A stretch of 64,000 bases of DNA, from NCBI RefSeq assembly GCF_015704865.1, contig NZ_JADQTO010000011.1, forward strand, positions 124,001 through 188,000, written 5' to 3'. Numbering within the stretch: the stretch's first letter is position 1; each line of letters starts with the position of its first letter. The notes beneath the pieces were generated by a model that searched no databases, was not told where the DNA came from, and worked only from the letters and a program-made list of their open reading frames with translations. Position numbers and translations under genes: made by a program. The stretch comes from Actinoplanes aureus (GTDB lineage: Bacteria > Actinomycetota > Actinomycetes > Mycobacteriales > Micromonosporaceae). Below, piece by piece: positions 11,768 through 19,845 of the stretch.

Positions 11768-11788
11768 CACAGAGTGGAGTCCCCCGCC

Positions 11789-12826
11789 ATGCGCGCAACC
11801 CGGTTCCTCGCGGGAATCGTCGCCGCCACCACCGCACTGGCACTCGCTGCCTGCGGCGGCTCGTCCGACACCGAAGACACCCCCGCCGCGTCCGGCAGCG
11901 CCGCTGCGTCGTTCCCGGTCACCGTCACCCACGCGTTCGGCACCACGACCATCGCGAAGAAGCCCGAGCGGGTCGCCACGGTCAACTGGGCCAACCACGA
12001 GGTGCCCCTCGCGCTGGGCATCGTTCCGGTCGGCTACGCCAAGGCCAACTTCGGCGACGAGGACGGCGACGGCCTGCTGCCCTGGGACGCCGCGAAGCTC
12101 AAGGAGCTGGGCGCGCAAACCCCGGTGCTGTTCGACGAGACAGACGGCATCGACTTCGAGGGCGTGGCCAACACCAAGCCGGACGTCATCCTGGCCGCCT
12201 ACTCCGGTCTGACCCAGCAGGACTACGACACGCTGACCAAGATCGCGCCGGTCGTCGCGTACCCGAAGGCGGCCTGGGCCACCTCGTGGCGCGACAGCAT
12301 CAAGCTGGAGAGCCAGGCTCTCGGCCTGGCCGCCGAGGGCGACGCGCTGATCGCGAAGATCGAGAAGCAGATGACCGACGAGGCCGCGCGCTACCCGAAG
12401 CTGGCCGGCAAGTCGGTGATGTTCCTGACCCACCTCGACCCGACCGACCTCAGCAAGATCAGCTTCTACACCACGCACGACACCCGGGCGCAGTTCTTCA
12501 CCGACCTCGGCATGAAGCACCCGGCGAGCATCGAGAAGGCCTCCGCCGCGACCACCGAGTTCAGCCTCACGCAGAGCGCCGAGCAGGTCCAGAACCTCAG
12601 CGACGTGGACATCATCGTGACCTACGGTGACGCCGAGGGCACCACCCTGGCCACCCTGCAGAAGGACCCGCTGCTCTCCAAGATCCCGGCGATCAAGCGT
12701 GGCTCGTTCGTCTCGCTGCCCGGCAGCACCCCGGTGGCCACCGCCGCCAACCCGACGCCGCTGGCCGTCTCGTTCGTACTCAAGGACTACGTCGACCTGC
12801 TCGGCAAGGCCGCCGACAAGATCTGA
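11789..12826 (+). CDS. Iron-siderophore ABC transporter substrate-binding lipoprotein
   Basis: 345 residues. A lipoprotein signal ends in the lipobox LALAAC (Cys ~22), followed by a Ser/Ala/Thr linker. The periplasmic-binding fold is of FepB/FecB type (TVTHAFGTTTIAKKPERVATV near 45, KPDVILAAYSGL near 135). It captures ferric siderophore outside the membrane for the two permeases downstream. ATG 11789 is chosen because the signal peptide begins there. An iron box lies immediately upstream, and the stop overlaps the next start by 1 bp. Confidence 0.92.
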   Translation: MRATRFLAGIVAATTALALAACGGSSDTEDTPAASGSAAASFPVTVTHAFGTTTIAKKPERVATVNWANHEVPLALGIVPVGYAKANFGDEDGDGLLPWDAAKLKELGAQTPVLFDETDGIDFEGVANTKPDVILAAYSGLTQQDYDTLTKIAPVVAYPKAAWATSWRDSIKLESQALGLAAEGDALIAKIEKQMTDEAARYPKLAGKSVMFLTHLDPTDLSKISFYTTHDTRAQFFTDLGMKHPASIEKASAATTEFSLTQSAEQVQNLSDVDIIVTYGDAEGTTLATLQKDPLLSKIPAIKRGSFVSLPGSTPVATAANPTPLAVSFVLKDYVDLLGKAADKI

Positions 12827-13869
12827 TGACGCTCGTCGAAACCAGGTCCGGGCCGGACGTCGCCGACGTGCGACGCCCGGCCCGGGTGCGCCTGGCCTGG
12901 CTCCTGGCCGTTCTCGCCGTCCTGATCCTGGTCCTGCTGGCATCGGTCGCCTTCGGCTCCCGGATCGTCGGCTGGGCCGACATCACCGCCGCCTTCGGCG
13001 GCAGCGACGAGACGCTCGATCAGGCGGCCGTGGTCAAACGCATTCCGCGTACGGTGCTCGCGGCACTCGTCGGCGCGGCGCTCGCCCTGTCCGGCGCGGT
13101 CATGCAGGGCGTCACCCGTAACCCGCTCGCCGACCCGGGCATCCTCGGCGTGAACATGGGGGCCATGCTCGCGATCGCGGTCGGCATGGTGACCATCGGG
13201 CTGTACACCGCGACCGCGTACATCTGGGTCGCCATCGCCGGAGCGGCCGTGTCCACCCTGTTCGTCTACGCGGTCGGCTCGCTCGGCCGTGGCGGCGCCA
13301 CCCCGCTCAAGATCGCACTGGCCGGTGCGGCCACCTCCGCCGCGCTCGCGTCGCTGGTGGTCGCGGTCGTGCTCCCGCGCGGCGACATCGCCGAGAACTT
13401 CCAGTCCTGGCAGGTCGGCGGGGTCGGCGGCGCGAGCTGGGAGAGCATCGGCCAGGTGCTGCCGTTCCTGATCGGCGGCCTGGTCATCTGCCTGCTCTGC
13501 GCCAGGTCGCTGAACTCCCTCGCGCTCGGCGACGAACTGGCCGCCGGCCTCGGTGAACGCGTCGCCCTGGTACGCGCCGTCGCGGCCCTCGGTGCGGTGG
13601 TGCTGTGCGGCGCGGCCACCGCGGTCGCCGGGCCGATCGCCTTCGTCGGCCTGATCGTCCCGCACCTGTGCCGGCTGCTCGTCGGCCTGGACCACCGCTG
13701 GCTGCTGCCGTTCGTCACGCTCGTCGGCGCCGCGCTGCTGACCGCGGCGGACGTCGTCGGCCGGGTGGTGAACCGGCCCGACGAGATCGAGGCCGGCATC
13801 ATCACCGCGCTGATCGGCGCCCCGTTCTTCATCTACATCGTCCGCCGGCAGAAGGTACGCGAGCTGTGA
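12826..13869 (+). CDS. FecCD-family iron-siderophore permease
   Basis: 347 residues, about ten membrane helices, the full FecCD length. Family motifs are RIPRTVLAALVGAALALSGA and QGVTRNPLADPGILGVN near 65-105, and GPIAFVGLIVPHLCRLLVG near 265. It pairs with the next permease to form the membrane channel for ferric siderophore import. The ATG shares a base with the preceding stop, and the end overlaps the next gene by 4 bp, so the operon is tightly coupled. Confidence 0.93.
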   Translation: MTLVETRSGPDVADVRRPARVRLAWLLAVLAVLILVLLASVAFGSRIVGWADITAAFGGSDETLDQAAVVKRIPRTVLAALVGAALALSGAVMQGVTRNPLADPGILGVNMGAMLAIAVGMVTIGLYTATAYIWVAIAGAAVSTLFVYAVGSLGRGGATPLKIALAGAATSAALASLVVAVVLPRGDIAENFQSWQVGGVGGASWESIGQVLPFLIGGLVICLLCARSLNSLALGDELAAGLGERVALVRAVAALGAVVLCGAATAVAGPIAFVGLIVPHLCRLLVGLDHRWLLPFVTLVGAALLTAADVVGRVVNRPDEIEAGIITALIGAPFFIYIVRRQKVREL

Positions 13870-14897
13870 GCACCACCTTGACGGCCGTCACCCGCGGCCG
13901 GGTCCGGCGCGGCCGGCGACGGCAGACCGTACTGGCCGTCCTCGGTGTGGCGGTGGCCGTGATGTTCCTCGTCTCGCTGATGGTCGGGCAGACCTTCTAC
14001 CCGCCCGGCGACGTACTGCGGGTGATCCTCGGCGGGACCGTGCCGGGTGCCTCGTTCACCGTGGGTGAGCTCCGGCTGCCCCGGACCGTCCTTGCCCTGA
14101 TCACCGGGCTGTGCTTCGGGATGGGCGGGGTCACCTTCCAGACCATGATGCGCAACCCGCTGGCCAGCCCCGACATCATCGGTATCAGCTCCGCGGCGGG
14201 CGCGGCGGCGGCCTTCGCCATCATCGTGCTCAACCTCGGCGAGACCGGCGTCTCGGTCTTCGCCATCACCGCGGCACTCGGCGTGGCCCTGGTCATCTAC
14301 GTCCTGTCGTTCAAGGACGGTGTGGCCGGCACCCGGCTCGTCCTGATCGGCATCGGCATCGCCGCCATGCTGAACAGCGCCACCTCGTACATCCTGAACC
14401 AGGCCGGGCAGTGGGACCTGCAGGCCGCGACGCGCTGGCTCAACGGCAGCCTGAACGGGTCCACCTGGAACGAGGCGCTTCCGGTGCTGCTCGCCCTGCT
14501 GGTGTTCGGCCCGGTGCTGCTCGGCCAGGCCCGGAACCTGACCATGCTGCAGCTCGGCGACGACACCGCGGCGGCTCTGGGGACCCGGCTGGAACGTACC
14601 CGGCTGGTGTCGATCGTCGCCGCTGTCGGCCTGATCGCGTTCGCCACCTCGGCCACCGGCCCGATCGCGTTCGTGGCTTTCCTCGCCGGGCCGATCGCTG
14701 CCCGGCTGGTCGGCTCCGGCGGCTCGGTGCTGCTGCCGTCCGCCCTGGTCGGCTCGTTGCTGGTGCTGGTCGCGGACTTCCTCGGCCAGTTCGCCTTCGA
14801 CACCCGCTTCCCGGTGGGTGTGATCACCGGCGTGCTCGGCGCCCCGTACCTCATCTATCTGCTCGTCCGCACGAACCGCGCGGGAGGCTCCCTGTGA
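13866..14897 (+). CDS. FecCD-family iron-siderophore permease (second subunit)
   Basis: 343 residues from GTG 13866, with ten predicted helices. FecCD motifs ELRLPRTVLALITGLCFG, MRNPLASPDIIGISSAAG and ATGPIAFVAFLAGPIAARL are clear. The start sits in a GTGA overlap with the upstream permease. Together they make a heterodimeric FepD/FepG-like channel. Confidence 0.93.
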   Translation: MSTTLTAVTRGRVRRGRRRQTVLAVLGVAVAVMFLVSLMVGQTFYPPGDVLRVILGGTVPGASFTVGELRLPRTVLALITGLCFGMGGVTFQTMMRNPLASPDIIGISSAAGAAAAFAIIVLNLGETGVSVFAITAALGVALVIYVLSFKDGVAGTRLVLIGIGIAAMLNSATSYILNQAGQWDLQAATRWLNGSLNGSTWNEALPVLLALLVFGPVLLGQARNLTMLQLGDDTAAALGTRLERTRLVSIVAAVGLIAFATSATGPIAFVAFLAGPIAARLVGSGGSVLLPSALVGSLLVLVADFLGQFAFDTRFPVGVITGVLGAPYLIYLLVRTNRAGGSL

Positions 14898-15703
14898 CCA
14901 CCGACCACTCCCTGACGGCCGAGAAGCTGACCGTTGGCTACGGCGACCGGGTCGTCATCGAGTCGCTCGACCTGCTCGTGCCGCCGGGCCGGATCACCGC
15001 GATCGTCGGCGCCAACGCCTGCGGCAAGTCGACGCTGCTGCGCTCGATGTCCCGGCTGCTCGCACCGCGGGCCGGGCACGTCCTGCTGGACGGCCGCGAG
15101 GTGCACCGGATGCCGGCGAAGGAGCTGGCCCGCACCCTCGGCCTGCTGCCGCAGTCACCGATCGCGCCGGAAGGCATCACCGTCGCCGACCTGGTCGGCC
15201 GGGGCCGCAACCCGCACCAGCGGATCCTGTCGCGGTGGAGCCGGGACGACGACGTCGCGGTGGCCGCCGCCCTGGACGCCACGCACACCGCGGACCTGGC
15301 GGAACGCTCGGTCGACGAGCTCTCCGGCGGTCAGCGCCAGCGGGTGTGGATCGCGATGGCCCTGGCACAGCAGACCGAGCTGCTGCTGCTCGACGAGCCG
15401 ACCACGTTCCTCGACGTCAGCCACCAGGTCGAGGTGCTGGACCTGCTCACCGACCTGAACCGGGACCGCGGCACCACGATCGTCATGGTCCTGCACGACC
15501 TGAACATGGCGGCCCGTTACGCGGACCACCTGATCGCGCTGGCCGCCGGCGGCGTGCACGCCGCCGGCGAGCCGGCCGAGGTGCTGACCGAGGATTGCGT
15601 ACGCGCGGTCTTCGGCCTGGACAGCCAGGTGATCGACGACCCGGTGTCCGGCAAGCCGTTGATGCTGCCGATCGGCCGGCACCACGTGCGCACCCCGGTG
15701 TAG
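14894..15703 (+). CDS. Iron-siderophore ABC transporter ATP-binding protein
   Basis: 269 residues of FepC/FhuC type: Walker A GANACGKSTLL (about 40), Q-loop LLPQSPIAPEGITV, ABC signature ELSGGQRQRVWIAMALAQ (about 145), Walker B LLLLDEPTTFLD and H-loop VLHDLNMAARYAD. It powers import through the two permeases. The start overlaps the second permease's stop as GTGA. This completes a four-gene uptake set; no siderophore biosynthesis or reductase gene is adjacent. Confidence 0.94.
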   Translation: MTTDHSLTAEKLTVGYGDRVVIESLDLLVPPGRITAIVGANACGKSTLLRSMSRLLAPRAGHVLLDGREVHRMPAKELARTLGLLPQSPIAPEGITVADLVGRGRNPHQRILSRWSRDDDVAVAAALDATHTADLAERSVDELSGGQRQRVWIAMALAQQTELLLLDEPTTFLDVSHQVEVLDLLTDLNRDRGTTIVMVLHDLNMAARYADHLIALAAGGVHAAGEPAEVLTEDCVRAVFGLDSQVIDDPVSGKPLMLPIGRHHVRTPV

Positions 15704-15742: not shown

Positions 15743-16021
15743 GTGCCCGATGTGGCAGGCCGAACCCGCGTCCAACTCCTGACCGCGGTCGGGCATGTGG
15801 TCCTGCTCATCGGCGCGATCGCCACTGTCGCGGTGGGATTCGCGATCGTCACCACCCGGTTCGCCGGGCCCGGCATCGAGTTCGCCGTCGCGCTGGCGAC
15901 GACGGTCGCGGTCAGCCTTTACGGCAGCCTCGTCGCGTCGTCTACTCTGCACCGTCGACTGGACGGGCCGCGGCGCCCCGGCGCCCCGGCCGCCGGGAGC
16001 CGCGCTCCAGGCGAGCCCTGA
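15743..16021 (+). CDS. Small two-helix membrane protein, unknown
   Basis: 92 residues from GTG 15743, with GAGG nearby upstream. Two strongly hydrophobic helices are visible (QLLTAVGHVVLLIGAIATVAV near 11-35 and EFAVALATTVAVSLYGSLVAS near 46-68). A Pro/Arg/Gly-rich hydrophilic tail follows. No family recognised. The last 80 bp overlap the end of a convergent gene, which lowers confidence in the C-terminus. It lies 40 bp after the siderophore operon and could be read through from it. Confidence 0.5.
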   Translation: MPDVAGRTRVQLLTAVGHVVLLIGAIATVAVGFAIVTTRFAGPGIEFAVALATTVAVSLYGSLVASSTLHRRLDGPRRPGAPAAGSRAPGEP

Positions 16022-16760
16022 CGGCTCGGCCGGCGATCGTCGCACCGGTGCCGCCCAGGGCGGTGGTGATCGCCGCGCCGGCGAGGATCATCTGTTCGTG
16101 TGTGGTGAGTTCGGGTGTGAGCTCGCGCAGGACAAGGAACAGCACGAGGTAGATGGCGGCGAGGCCCGCGACGGCAGCCAGCCCGGCGACGACTTTGAAC
16201 GCCTCGTACAGCAGGTACCGCTTCAGCGTCTCGCCGTCGTTCGTGGCCCGCGTCATGTGCCAGACCGCGAAGTCGTAGTAGTCGGCGGGTCCGCGCGGCG
16301 TTTCCTGGGGCTTCGAAGGCTGCTGCCGGACCACCTCGCGAAGGGCGTCCTCGATAGCGTCGCGCGCCGGCTTACCGAGGCGTTTCGGGTCTGCGGGCCA
16401 GGTGGCGCACTCTTTGAAGATCACCCGGCACACGGCGGCGGGGCCGCCGGCCCGGCACAGGTCGGCTGTCTGGTGCCGGCGCGCGAAGTCCTCGATCAGT
16501 CCATGTACGAGTCGGCAGAGTTGGACGACCCGCTCGGTCAATTCGAGCGCGGCCGGATGAATTGCGACGTCCACAGTCGACTTCGCGTCGAGTTCAACAA
16601 ACGCTATTTGTTTCTGCTTGAGCCAGCGCGCGGGGAGAGCCGTGGGGTCGGAGAGGAGGCTCGCGGCAAAGTCCCGGAGGTGCTTGGGCTCGACGCGCTT
16701 GGTGCCACGCCGGATGAGCTGCGCTTTCGTCATCCGCGGCGGCGACGCCTTCTGGTCCAT
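15942..16760 (-). CDS. Hypothetical membrane-anchored protein
   Basis: 272 residues: a ~185-residue hydrophilic, probably cytoplasmic, N-terminal part with several charged helices, then two membrane helices (FKVVAGLAAVAGLAAIYLVLFLVL near 187-212 and MILAGAAITTALGGTGATIAGRAV near 222-246) and a basic tail. No family recognised. It is divergent from the XRE/glycosyltransferase pair across a 220-bp gap that includes an AT-rich stretch, so it may belong to the same cassette. Its 3' end overlaps the small convergent membrane gene. Confidence 0.7.
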   Translation of the reverse strand: MDQKASPPRMTKAQLIRRGTKRVEPKHLRDFAASLLSDPTALPARWLKQKQIAFVELDAKSTVDVAIHPAALELTERVVQLCRLVHGLIEDFARRHQTADLCRAGGPAAVCRVIFKECATWPADPKRLGKPARDAIEDALREVVRQQPSKPQETPRGPADYYDFAVWHMTRATNDGETLKRYLLYEAFKVVAGLAAVAGLAAIYLVLFLVLRELTPELTTHEQMILAGAAITTALGGTGATIAGRAVRARLERGSRRPGRRGAAARPVDGAE

Positions 16761-16980
16761 ACGGGGACACCCCCGGCTGATTGCGCTAAACTGGAATCGA
16801 GATTTAGTAGACTTGAATCGACTAGATTGAAGCTAGATATGCTCGATTCTCGTGTTGTCTACTGTGCTACTGTCCATTAAAGCTACGCCGGTTTACTCAA
16901 GGTATTCAAGTGCTCACTGAGGCGGGCGGGACGGCGCGTGAAGTGCCCACCGTCAGCCGTCGGGTTGGGAGGTGGCCATC
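16761..16980. promoter_or_regulatory. AT-rich divergent control region with GAATCGA repeats
   Basis: The stretch from about 16785 to 16905 has far more A/T than its neighbours. It contains GAATCGA at 16794-16800 and again at 16815-16821, exactly 21 bp apart (two helical turns). The reverse complement TCGATTC occurs at 16843-16849. CTAGAT occurs twice, 11 bp apart (16822, 16833). This looks like a multi-site operator for the adjacent XRE-type protein; that role is inference. Confidence 0.5.
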
Positions 16981-18075
16981 GTGGCTACACCAGCAGCGGA
17001 ACAGCTGGCGCACCGGCTCCGCACGCTCCGCGAGAAGGCCGGCCTCACGCAGGGCGAGCTGGCCGAGATCTTCACGAAGGACGGTCGGAAGGTGGGCGCG
17101 GCCGCCATCTCCTCGTGGGAGCGGCTGAGGAATCCCGTGCTGGTGCCGGAGAACCGGATCGAGCCCTACTCGCGGCTGCCCTTATTGGCCGGTGATCCTC
17201 CGCGACTGCGGGCGGAGGACGACCTCACGCAGTCGCAGCTGGCCGAGCGTGACGAGCTGCTCCTGGATCTGACGGTCCTCTCCGACCAGGCGCGCGGCGG
17301 GACGGCGGCGGCCGAGGCGGCTCGTGTCCCGACGTACCGGTCATGGTTCTTCTCTGACGGCGGCCCGATCGTGATCATCGCTCCGGATGCGCCCGCCTGG
17401 GCGATGGGGCCCCTGGCGGACGATGCCGATCCGAACTACACGGCCCTGCACCTGTTCGCGGATCAGGACGCCCTGATCGAACTCCATGGGCACATTCGCG
17501 CCGAGAACGACCCCTCGCTGCCGGTCCGGTTCAAGCGGGCGTCGACGGTCACCGCTGACGACCTCTCCGGCCACCTCGTTCTCCTGGGCGGCATCGCGTG
17601 GAACTCGGTGACGCGGCGGCTGCTCCGCCAGTTGGAACGGCTTCCCATCCGTCAGATGGAGATGCCCGAACTGACCTCGGGGGAGATCTTCGCGGTCGGC
17701 CACGGTGCGGCGGAGCGGCGGTTCCTGCCGGTCTGGTCCAAGGCCAACGGTGAACCCTCCCCGGAGCTCGAGGAGGACGTCGGTCTGCTGGCCCGGGTGC
17801 CCAACCCGTTCAACTCCAGCAAGACGCTGACCCTGTGCAACGGCATCCACAGCCGGGGCGTTCTCGGCGCGGTCCGGACGCTGACCGATGCCCGCATCCG
17901 GGAGGCCAACGAGGCGTACCTCGCCGAGCATTTCGCCAACGACGAGTACGGGCTGCTGGTCCGGGTCCCGGTCTTCCACGGCGAAGCGCTCTCCCCGGAT
18001 CTCCAGGACCCGGCGAACGTCCTGTACGCGTGGCCGCAGAGCGCAGGAGTCAAGCCGCGGCGGGACCGCCCATGA
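16981..18075 (+). CDS. XRE-family HTH protein with uncharacterised C-terminal sensor-like domain
   Basis: 364 residues. An XRE HTH at about 8-45 (LRTLREKAGLTQGELAEIF) is followed from ~110 by a large conserved domain. Its visible motifs are WFFSDGGPIVIIAP, LIELHGHIRAEN, HLVLLGGIAWNSVTRRLL and NPFNSSKTLTLCNGIHSRG. I recognise this arrangement as a recurrent actinomycete type with no assigned function; the GG-x-x-N segment suggests a Rossmann-like ligand-binding fold (inference). The GTG at 16981 is chosen for GGGAGG about 9 nt upstream. The stop overlaps the glycosyltransferase-like start as ATGA, so the two proteins are made together. Confidence 0.75.
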   Translation: MATPAAEQLAHRLRTLREKAGLTQGELAEIFTKDGRKVGAAAISSWERLRNPVLVPENRIEPYSRLPLLAGDPPRLRAEDDLTQSQLAERDELLLDLTVLSDQARGGTAAAEAARVPTYRSWFFSDGGPIVIIAPDAPAWAMGPLADDADPNYTALHLFADQDALIELHGHIRAENDPSLPVRFKRASTVTADDLSGHLVLLGGIAWNSVTRRLLRQLERLPIRQMEMPELTSGEIFAVGHGAAERRFLPVWSKANGEPSPELEEDVGLLARVPNPFNSSKTLTLCNGIHSRGVLGAVRTLTDARIREANEAYLAEHFANDEYGLLVRVPVFHGEALSPDLQDPANVLYAWPQSAGVKPRRDRP

Positions 18076-19238
18076 GCACCAGGGCAGGTACTCAGCGGTC
18101 CGACCACGACCGGCTGCTCCGCAGGCTCGACTGGAGCCCGGAAGTGCGGCCGTCCGGGCGGCCACTCGACGCGATCATCGTGCCCGCCTCCCGGCGAGCC
18201 AATCGGCTGAGTGCGGTGATCGACCTCGCGTCCCGCTGCGAGACCACACTCGTCATTCTCGCCTCGCACCAGTGCGACATCGACGAGGTCGCGGCGCTGA
18301 TCGCCAAGCGCCCCGGCAAGGCGCGCGCGGTCCTGGCCGAGGTCCCGTTGCAAACCGATCATGAGGCATTGCGGCTGGTCACCTCGGCGGAGGACATCCG
18401 CGCCCTGAGCGGTGATCGGTCGAGCAACCTCAGCCTCAAGCGGAACATCGGACTGCTGCTGGCTCGCTACCGCGGGTGGCAGAAGATCATGTTCTTGGAC
18501 GACGACATCATCAGGATCACCCCCGAGCAGGTCGCGCGGGTCGCGCATCACCTGGACAGCAACCGGTTCGCCGGCTTCAAGACAGTGGACTTCCCGGACA
18601 ACTCCGTGGTCTGTCACGCCAACCGCTTGGTCGACCGGCCCCAGGGTATCTTCGTCAGCGGTGCCGCGCTCGGCGTGAACACCGCCGGTCATCGCCCCTT
18701 GGAGGTGTTCCCCGACATCTACAACGAGGACTGGTTCGCCTTCGCCGGTGAGGCGGAGACCAACGGCGTCGCGCACGTCGGGGACGTCGGGCAGCTGTCG
18801 TTCAATCCGTTCAAGGACTCCGGGCGAGCGACGTTCGAGGAGTTCGGCGACCTGATCGCCGAGGGCCTCTACACCCTCTTCACCGATGGCGGCGGTCTCC
18901 ACCGGGCGACGACCGACTTCTGGAGACAGTTCATCGACGAACGGTGGGCACTGATCAGCGAGATCCGGCGGAAGCTCGACGAGAACGCGACGCACGAGGC
19001 GGTGCAGGCGGCCAAGTCGCTGCAGGCGGCGCAGTGCCAGCTGGAGATCACCAACGCGGACGACTGCGTGCGCTTCCTCGATGTCTGGCAGGAGGATCAG
19101 CGCCGGTTCGGGAAGGCGAGCCGGTTGGCGTTCGGGCGCGACTACGACTACCGCGAGGCTTTCGACGCGCTGGGTCTGTACCGCTGGCAGGAGGCCCGGT
19201 TCGGGATAGAGAGGCTGCCGGTCAGCGCTGGCTGGTAG
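18072..19238 (+). CDS. Glycosyltransferase-like protein (GT-A features)
   Basis: 388 residues. The region at about 135-145 reads KIMFLDDDIIRITPEQV, an acidic DxD-type metal-binding motif after a hydrophobic strand. YNEDWFAF near 217 matches the ED motif that supplies the catalytic base in GT-A enzymes. The N-terminal ~100 residues (LDAIIVPASRRANRLSAVIDLA) fit a Rossmann-like nucleotide-sugar fold. No signal peptide or membrane helix is seen, so it is cytoplasmic. Donor and acceptor are unknown. It is translationally coupled to the XRE/sensor protein, which suggests a dedicated functional pair. Confidence 0.68.
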   Translation: MSTRAGTQRSDHDRLLRRLDWSPEVRPSGRPLDAIIVPASRRANRLSAVIDLASRCETTLVILASHQCDIDEVAALIAKRPGKARAVLAEVPLQTDHEALRLVTSAEDIRALSGDRSSNLSLKRNIGLLLARYRGWQKIMFLDDDIIRITPEQVARVAHHLDSNRFAGFKTVDFPDNSVVCHANRLVDRPQGIFVSGAALGVNTAGHRPLEVFPDIYNEDWFAFAGEAETNGVAHVGDVGQLSFNPFKDSGRATFEEFGDLIAEGLYTLFTDGGGLHRATTDFWRQFIDERWALISEIRRKLDENATHEAVQAAKSLQAAQCQLEITNADDCVRFLDVWQEDQRRFGKASRLAFGRDYDYREAFDALGLYRWQEARFGIERLPVSAGW

Positions 19239-19725
19239 CGTCGCTGAGCCGTAACCGTTCCTCGACGCGGCCGGCGGTGCCGAGCTCCTGATACTCCTTC
19301 GTCCGTTCGAAGCCCAGCGATTCGTAGAGTTTCAACGCGTCCGGGTTGGGGTGGATGACCCACACGAAGACCTCGTGTTCCCGCACGTCGTCCAGCAGCA
19401 TGCCGATCAGCTCGGAGGCGATCTTCTTGCGCCGGTGCCGTGGGTCGGTCCAGACCCACCCGATGTGCGGGCCGTCCGGCTCGTGGGTCAGCCGCGCCAT
19501 TCCCACGACCGTCCCGTTCAACCGTGCCACAGCCCACCGCCCCGTCCGGCAGGAGGTGCGCCACTTCGCGGCGCTCCACGACGACTCGTGCGGTTCGGCC
19601 GGTAGGAAGAACTCCGGTGAGTCGCGCAGCGCGGCGAGGCGGGCCTCGCGCGCCAGAAGCCAGTCATCCGGAGTCAGAATCAGGTATTCCGTCGTCGCGT
19701 CGCTGTCACTTTCGGGAGCCGCCAT
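19222..19725 (-). CDS. GNAT-family N-acetyltransferase
   Basis: 167 residues from ATG 19725. GNAT motif A is seen as IGWVWTDPRHRRKKIASELIGMLLDDV (acetyl-CoA pyrophosphate loop, about 94-120), and motif B as NPDALKLYESLGFERTKEY. The N-terminal LREARLAALRDSPEFF-like segment is common in small-molecule acetyltransferases. Substrate unknown. A TTG at 19761 in frame would add 12 residues and is not preferred. It overlaps the convergent glycosyltransferase-like gene by 17 bp. Confidence 0.85.
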   Translation of the reverse strand: MAAPESDSDATTEYLILTPDDWLLAREARLAALRDSPEFFLPAEPHESSWSAAKWRTSCRTGRWAVARLNGTVVGMARLTHEPDGPHIGWVWTDPRHRRKKIASELIGMLLDDVREHEVFVWVIHPNPDALKLYESLGFERTKEYQELGTAGRVEERLRLSDATSQR

Positions 19726-19845
19726 CCACACCCTTTCGCTCTCGGCGCTGAACCTCTTCAATGTGAGGCATCCGCGCTCGGCGCGCCACGTGAGGCCCTT
19801 GATGGCGGCTCGGCTCCCGGTCGGACCGGCTAGAGCGCTTCCCTA

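Follow-up and report, generated by a model that had tools for sequence, protein, structure and literature searches.

An apparently undescribed regulator–glycosyltransferase–acetyltransferase gene set in soil actinobacteria, with a possible role in small-molecule modification

Operons that join a one-component regulator to modifying enzymes are a known kind. Among the GT-A glycosyltransferases closest to the enzyme considered here, mannosyl-3-phosphoglycerate synthase (MpgS, family GT55) and mycobacterial GpgS (GT81) are soluble, act on soluble small acceptors and, to our knowledge, are not coupled to a regulator. MtdL (GT75) and the nucleoside 3'-O-glucosyltransferase AvpGT (GT2) also act on soluble small acceptors, according to the respective reports (PMC9937993, PMC11959488). 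In Listeria, the repressor MogR is neutralised by a glycosyltransferase protein, GmaR, which is reported to consist of glycosyltransferase, TPR, linker and anti-repressor domains (PMC9638930). We analyzed a 64,000-nucleotide stretch of Actinoplanes aureus (contig NZ_JADQTO010000011.1, positions 124,001 to 188,000; hereafter the window) from a 10.7-Mb genome (G000). It carries a set of three genes, encoding an XRE-type regulator (B), a predicted GT-A enzyme (C) and a GNAT acetyltransferase (D). This set is apparently undescribed in soil actinobacteria: no description was found in the open-access literature, although subscription papers may hold one, and neither the glycosyltransferase family, the sensor-like domain of the regulator nor their combination was found described. 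Our tentative reading, held with a little less than even confidence, is that B, C and D form an autoregulated cassette that modifies a small molecule by glycosylation and N-acetylation. The core features are the following, in window coordinates.

16981..18075, forward strand: B, XRE-type regulator with a C-terminal sensor-like domain, 364 residues; HTH_31 above cut-off
17002..17124, forward strand: helix-turn-helix of B, residues 8–48 (PF13560)
17332..18036, forward strand: C-terminal domain of B, residues 118–352, with D-x-D-x-L-x-E, GG-x-x-x-N, T-x-T-x-CNG and RG
18072..19238, forward strand: C, soluble GT-A glycosyltransferase-like enzyme by predicted fold, 388 residues
18498..18506, forward strand: DDD of C, residues 143–145, putative metal/nucleotide-sugar motif, invariant in 61 of 61 aligned rows
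18720..18734, forward strand: YNEDW of C, residues 217–221, putative catalytic-base motif, invariant in 61 of 61 aligned rows
19222..19761, reverse strand: D, GNAT acetyltransferase (PF00583), 179 residues, convergent with C

The best start of B is the GTG at 16981, behind GGGAGG (the list of open reading frames begins B at 16972). Its end at 18075 overlaps C by 4 bp (ATGA, 18072–18075), and the 3' ends of C and D overlap by 17 bp. An earlier note on this DNA had grouped B and C with a divergently encoded membrane protein (A); all three genes and the 4-bp overlap it described were recovered from the open reading frames, and the FLDDDI and YNEDW motifs it had pointed out in C proved present and invariant. 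D was not listed in it. The reading frames of B and C are not chance, as both are conserved down to about 30% identity across several actinobacterial families.

The pairing of B with C holds well outside the close relatives of the window. B is encoded upstream of C in all 61 loci fetched through C (59 distinct, window included). Across 100 related genomes, 39 carry both genes, one carries C only (G082, a distant match), five carry B only and 55 carry neither (Fisher p = 4e-21, indicative since the genomes are related); C relatives are thus present in 40 and B in 44. The intergenic gap is exactly −4 bp in 27 of the 61 loci and at most 60 bp in 53, with start codons picked by script, and the widest gaps, 872 bp in L036 and 968 bp in L038, contain an extra open reading frame. 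Pairwise identities of B and C are strongly correlated (r = 0.92 over 53 of the 61 loci, with near-duplicates, L025, L026, L032 and L057 left out), while the best of 2000 permutations reached 0.20. The earlier note had staked the coupling on co-occurrence beyond close relatives, and the pair shows it across these loci and genomes.

This coupling would also be expected if C glycosylated B, and D perhaps acetylated it, with the modification state setting repression. The earlier note had put forward such self-modification, or else a sugar-tagging response. C without B is found in only one of 40 genomes, a distant match; the 4-bp overlap and the co-divergence point the same way, as does a B-type domain paired with an unrelated GT25 enzyme at a distant locus (L174). 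A regulator and the operon it controls would, however, be just as likely to show coupling and co-divergence. Five of 100 genomes have B but no C, and the model of C has no extra domain for a protein acceptor. We consider self-modification distinctly unlikely. We see a slim prospect that the C-terminal domain of B is the acceptor or a direct gauge of the C reaction, glycosylation and acetylation of the repressor reporting the nucleotide-sugar state; sugar supply and acetyl-CoA would then set the expression of the operon.

C relatives were detected at 41 loci in a close-relative search of 84,980 species genomes. Hosts of C include Actinoplanes, Symbioplanes, Asanoa, Mangrovihabitans, Kribbella, Pseudonocardia, Amycolatopsis, Kibdelosporangium, Nonomuraea, Spongiactinospora, Kineosporia and Rhodococcus, among others, and within the genus of the window C is present in 33 of 60 genomes, G000 counted. 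In a phylum search with the C profile, matches outside G000 were short, lay near DDD (about 20–31 bits) and were not counted as relatives. The corresponding search with a whole-B profile returned outside G000 only short matches, mostly to the helix-turn-helix; it therefore says little and was replaced by a profile of the C-terminal domain. In a 246-genome sample of the class, the latter detected eight further genomes, five of which have C and a GNAT beside B; at the most distant three (L174–L176), neither C nor a GNAT of these families lies beside the B-type domain. Individual loci also vary in composition: L122 (5104–11133) holds the B–C pair in tandem duplicate, with an Acetyltransf_3-type GNAT after it, and L101 (4766–7054) encodes a distant C-like protein without B, in a single open reading frame with an alpha/beta-hydrolase domain.

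A patchy distribution, with C almost never found without B and B occurring without C, would suit a toxin–antitoxin or anti-phage module in which C is the effector. Several searches argue otherwise. No PADLOC match fell below 1e-3 (none for C; A, E 0.0034; B, E 0.11), C had no match among 72,556 records from plasmids and 50,697 from phages, and the B domain had a single plasmid match, at 29%. No relative was confirmed in viral contigs. Usual antitoxins are also far smaller than B. A toxin or defense role appears very unlikely.

The third gene is a usual companion of the pair. D of the window matches PF00583 (Acetyltransf_1) at 63.8 bits, against a cut-off of 20.7. A GNAT gene lies within 1.2 kb in 66 of 76 distinct B–C loci but in only one of nine loci with B alone (Fisher p = 7e-6, indicative because the loci are related). 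This tally used a uniform search of unfiltered open reading frames at 86 distinct loci, a simple gene caller having missed several GNAT genes; L115, a duplicate of L022, was left out, and L101, having C without B, stands outside the 76. In the scan of species genomes, a GNAT of subfamily D2 or D3 lies near the pair at 40 of 41 loci. Its place and strand vary: it may lie behind C, either convergent or in the same direction, or before B in divergent orientation.

The identity of the acetyltransferase varies with that of the glycosyltransferase. In a tree of 59 C proteins, from which L003 and L004 were left out (taken as L021 and L022 on identical match values), the D2 and D3 labels cluster by glycosyltransferase clade, with 8 changes against a shuffled mean of 26.2; the exception is L057, a D2 locus on the D3 side. 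The labels were set by hand. Among the rows marked "none or other" are L008, L016 and L017, although a GNAT does flank the pair in these genomes, and L011, the wider flank of which lay outside the look-up. Both clades contain Micromonosporaceae and Pseudonocardiaceae, and the GNAT subfamily tracks the glycosyltransferase clade more than host taxonomy. One genome (G012) holds two cassettes, one of each GNAT kind. Other acetyltransferase types also occur next to C, of the Acetyltransf_3 type in L122 and the Acetyltransf_7 type in L110, which has a second GNAT before B. Six Actinoplanes loci form a clade in which no GNAT was detected; five of them instead have a gene of a major facilitator superfamily (MFS) cluster convergent behind C, one of the five members having been checked by Pfam. 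At three Asanoa loci a PIG-L deacetylase is encoded behind C; its best NCBIfam match, BshB1, scored 58.6 bits against a cut-off of 182.5.

Glycosyltransferase, GNAT and the Asanoa deacetylase together are reminiscent of the enzymes that make mycothiol and bacillithiol, and the nearest GT-A folds to C include MpgS and GpgS. By this account, C and D would make a small acylated glycoside (a signal, or a thiol-like or osmolyte-like compound), with B under feedback control by the product. No ligase or kinase recurs among the neighbor clusters examined, however, presence in 33 of 60 genomes of one genus is unlike that of a core metabolite, and MshA of the mycothiol pathway is a GT-B enzyme. Biosynthesis of this kind is an unlikely explanation, though one we take seriously.

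C itself was assigned by structure prediction. Its AlphaFold model (predicted local distance difference test, pLDDT, 92.7) consists of a GT-A core and a helical tail, and C had no significant match in Pfam, NCBIfam, PADLOC or PHROGs. The nearest folds are MtdL (Z 18.2, root-mean-square deviation 3.6, 262 residues), MpgS (Z 16.3) and OsUAM2 (Z 15.3), followed by GpgS (Z 13.8) and AvpGT (Z 12.9); MpgS and GpgS share the GT-A fold with C, their structural alignments showing 10–13% identity. The initial fold match pointed to a GT75 mutase. With GT75, which comprises MtdL and plant UAM/RGP proteins, C has in common the GT-A fold, DDD and a (K/R)RN.G.L.A stretch before DDD, the first two being common to many GT-A enzymes. 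Compared by profile with four bacterial GT75 proteins, of which one carried the published residue numbering of MtdL, C scored 74.8% over 104 columns, and the likeness ends at DDD. Twenty GT2 domains from the same genome, used as a control, scored higher (88.9% over 162 columns). On these comparisons the mutase assignment was rejected, and C stands at least as near GT2 as GT75. PF03214 (the RGP profile) has no match to C at E ≤ 1 and none elsewhere in the genome.

The residues on which GT75 activity depends also separate the two. MtdL mutants at Arg159, Asp195 and Arg257 are reported to have lost mutase activity or nearly so (PMC9937993), and all three positions fall in the part of MtdL that has no profile alignment to C. 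The RG(F/Y)P motif around Arg159, the arginine that GT75 mutases autoglycosylate, was not found by sequence in the consensus of C, and the span from DDD to the presumed catalytic Asp is about half as long in C (D145–D220) as in GT75 (D111–D260), where the pairing of D220 with D260 is presumptive. Since the key GT75 residues lie outside the alignment and this span is about halved, C fits best as a GT-A family of its own, close to GT2, GT75 and GT55.

Kinship with the inverting GT2 enzymes, AvpGT among them, is suggested by the profile likeness and by a shared ED motif, which is catalytic in inverting GT2 enzymes and the basis for the comparison with YNEDW. By analogy with the GT2 motifs, C is likely an inverting transferase that uses YNEDW. 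The sequence profiles nevertheless indicate kinship, not membership: C has its own N-terminal stretch and helical tail, and PF00535 (Glycos_transf_2), with 42 matches in the genome, has none at C. Assignment of C as a TET-associated glycosyltransferase was also rejected (Pfam E 0.11, not significant).

The model of C bears directly on whether it works as GmaR does, chiefly by binding B. The precedent is a glycosyltransferase protein that neutralises a repressor, as cited above (PMC9638930), and a repressor coupled with such a protein is what the two systems share. The anti-repressor function of GmaR is reported to sit in a separate C-terminal domain fused to the glycosyltransferase (PMC9638930), whereas the model of C contains only a GT-A core and a helical tail. 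The invariance of the putative catalytic motifs of C in 61 of 61 rows is not expected from a binding role alone. We rate anti-repression by C as very unlikely indeed.

B begins with an XRE-type helix-turn-helix, as the earlier note had proposed (PF13560, 28.5 bits against a cut-off of 27), which aligns structurally with those of 2EF8, BldD and C-proteins at Z 6.5–8. For its other 250 residues no family reached significance in Pfam, NCBIfam, PADLOC or PHROGs, in agreement with the note's claim of a domain of no known family. Of the two motifs the note had read in this domain, CNG is present (C286 in 59, N287 in 61 and G288 in 64 of 64 rows), while the pattern given as GG-x-x-N is in fact GG-x-x-x-N (GGIAWN, residues 203–208), with GG in 64 of 64 rows and N in 62.

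The AlphaFold model of B (pLDDT 89.9) gives the C-terminal domain a modest fold likeness to BcsB (Z 10.2), the S-layer anchor 9fsa (Z 9.5) and the N-terminal domain of GH67 (Z 9.3), at 10–16% identity, and Foldseek returned nothing for it at E ≤ 0.001. Searching a viral library with the fold of B gave nothing under E 0.2. BcsB, archaeal S-layer domains and the N-terminal domains of GH67, GH115 and GH84, to all of which the fold likeness extends, are extracellular or accessory, whereas the domain in B is presumably cytosolic because it is fused to a helix-turn-helix. A distant B-type protein (L175) weakly matches the Pfam family S_layer_C (E 0.0016, below cut-off). Such likeness, which comes from a predicted model, tells no function. 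We regard the domain as sensor-like and as a predicted ligand binder, on conserved polar residues only.

Distant relatives show this domain in other settings. In place of the XRE-type helix-turn-helix they have a weak one resembling sigma-70 region 4 (E 6e-4 in L176 and 0.05 in L156, neither reaching cut-off; in L174 judged by eye). In L174 (5177–7493), the open reading frame with the B-type domain overlaps a Glyco_transf_25 (GT25) gene directly after it, the start codon being uncertain. If the domain were indeed modified or a gauge of glycosylation, its union with a sigma-like helix-turn-helix and GT25 in L174 would point to a general glycosylation-sensing module of transcription factors. The partner in L175 is a luciferase-like monooxygenase. 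In L176 (5641–9660), genes for a PP2C phosphatase, a C5 cytosine DNA methylase and an uncharacterised protein come after the B-type gene, possibly making up a separate conflict or modification locus. L156 (4114–6624; NZ_CP109316.1, a Streptomyces plasmid) encodes a B-type protein annotated as hypothetical. Genes for a sugar-phosphate isomerase and a Gfo/Idh oxidoreductase, in one operon, and for a methionine adenosyltransferase run divergently from it. A search with the L156 domain gave only fragment matches, in two of 246 Streptomyces genomes, and among the 35 genomes of the family of G464, the matches were the L174 protein itself and some in one other genus. Four Actinoplanes loci (L092–L095), apparently one shared site, have a solitary B without C or D, beside a cluster of YchF GTPases (L092, L093, L095) and one of Ada/AlkA repair proteins (L093–L095).

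Many of the regions before B carry a candidate operator; the corresponding region of the window, which lacks it, is given below.

16761..16980, no strand: upstream control region of B, 54.1% GC, with a presumed regulatory role

Upstream regions of B were compared in a set of 63–64 of 81, near-identical ones left out. They are rich in CTGAAGTTnAgtg-like sites: AACTTCA occurs 59 times in 64 regions, against 1.6 expected. At least one of six 7-mers of this kind was present upstream of B in 43 of 63 regions; the corresponding figures were 25 of 707 for regions preceding other called genes at these loci and 134 of 4218 for background windows from them. The contrast is somewhat flattered, since the 7-mers were chosen on the B regions. 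The motif model reached 18.0 bits per region against 10.1 for shuffled regions, and of the 43 best sites, 15 end 7–21 bp before the start of the B profile and seven lie at 143–153 bp. These repeats fit an autoregulated helix-turn-helix protein. In the window, the gap between A and B is AT-rich by the measure of this genome (54.1% GC against 70.9% for the whole window), as the earlier note had said. Because the motif is absent here, we infer the regulatory role of 16761–16980; L116, a close relative, has the motif, and 16891–16922 resembles the matching stretch of another, L112. Counts of TTGA/TCAA in the window region were not convincing (4, against a mean of 1.3 and a maximum of 5 in 500 shuffles).

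We tentatively favor small-molecule modification because B is linked to C in all 61 loci and a GNAT accompanies the pair far more often than it accompanies solitary B, and because C of the window has no membrane-like segment by hydropathy, while the enzymes with the nearest folds use soluble small acceptors. The GT25 gene directly after the B-type domain of L174 lends it support. The best hints come from two swaps beside a constant pair, of one GNAT subfamily for another and of a transporter for the GNAT, together with the small soluble acceptors of the structural relatives of C. The data show the three gene families and their linkage, the conserved motifs and predicted fold of C, and an operator-like repeat upstream of B in 43 of 63 cases; ligand sensing, repression, substrate, order of reactions and purpose we infer as follows. 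B would occupy operators upstream of its own gene. A ligand, probably either the compound to be modified or some metabolite containing a sugar, would bind to the C-terminal domain of B and thereby alter expression of the operon. C, as a soluble metal-dependent GT-A enzyme, would move a sugar from a nucleotide sugar to the compound, probably with inversion, and D would acetylate this compound, or its glycoside, at an amino group. The MFS transporter gene would mostly stand in for the GNAT in one Actinoplanes clade. The likeliest purpose would be to inactivate either a natural product that is toxic and bears an amino group or a metabolic by-product of the cell itself.

Several observations weigh against this proposal. 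One hydrophobic 19-residue stretch over 1.6 is present in 17 of 61 members of the C family. In 20 of 63 regions no operator-like motif was detected, those of the window, L021, L022 and L112 among them; most Kribbella and Pseudonocardia loci lack it, with L056 and L058 having it. For the acetyltransferase, 10 of 76 B–C loci have no detected GNAT, so that acetylation is not indispensable. The absence of GNATs from 643 kb of distant flank is biased low as a background, because the models were seeded from neighboring GNATs; PF00583 has 105 matches in the 10.7-Mb genome, or about one per 100 kb. For three of the nine loci with B alone, the lack of a GNAT is weaker evidence: L098 is close to the end of a contig, and the B matches of L099 and L100 are partial. 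The MFS clade, finally, may reflect shared synteny of related strains.

The remaining neighbors stand outside the set. A is encoded as follows.

15942..16760, reverse strand: A, protein with a C-terminal membrane segment, 272 residues, lineage-specific; a neighbor and not a core gene

The hydropathy of A peaks at residues 193–211. The earlier note had counted it as part of the system, a claim that did not hold up: homologs turned up only at the five closest loci (the window, L021, L022, L112 and L116), and the gene clusters found at its place in other clades are unrelated to A and to each other (hhalign probability below 1% in all eight comparisons). A neighboring F420 luciferase-like gene (n5, nine loci) and an epimerase gene (n67, three loci) were set aside as possibly reflecting just abundance or shared synteny. 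Just upstream of the cassette, at 11774–15703, genes judged by eye from the list of open reading frames read like an iron-siderophore ABC uptake system, with a binding protein, two permeases and an ATPase.

Together, the set holds a GT-A family and a sensor-like domain family that both have no Pfam or NCBIfam model, recurrently paired with acetyltransferases of several subfamilies. Actinoplanes, Amycolatopsis, Nonomuraea and Kribbella are genera reputed for their natural products. If such products are what the cassette inactivates, it would represent an unrecognised route of intrinsic resistance or self-protection; if it is biosynthetic, an unrecognised metabolite would be made; and if B is modified, the set would give a repressor a new means of sensing sugar supply.

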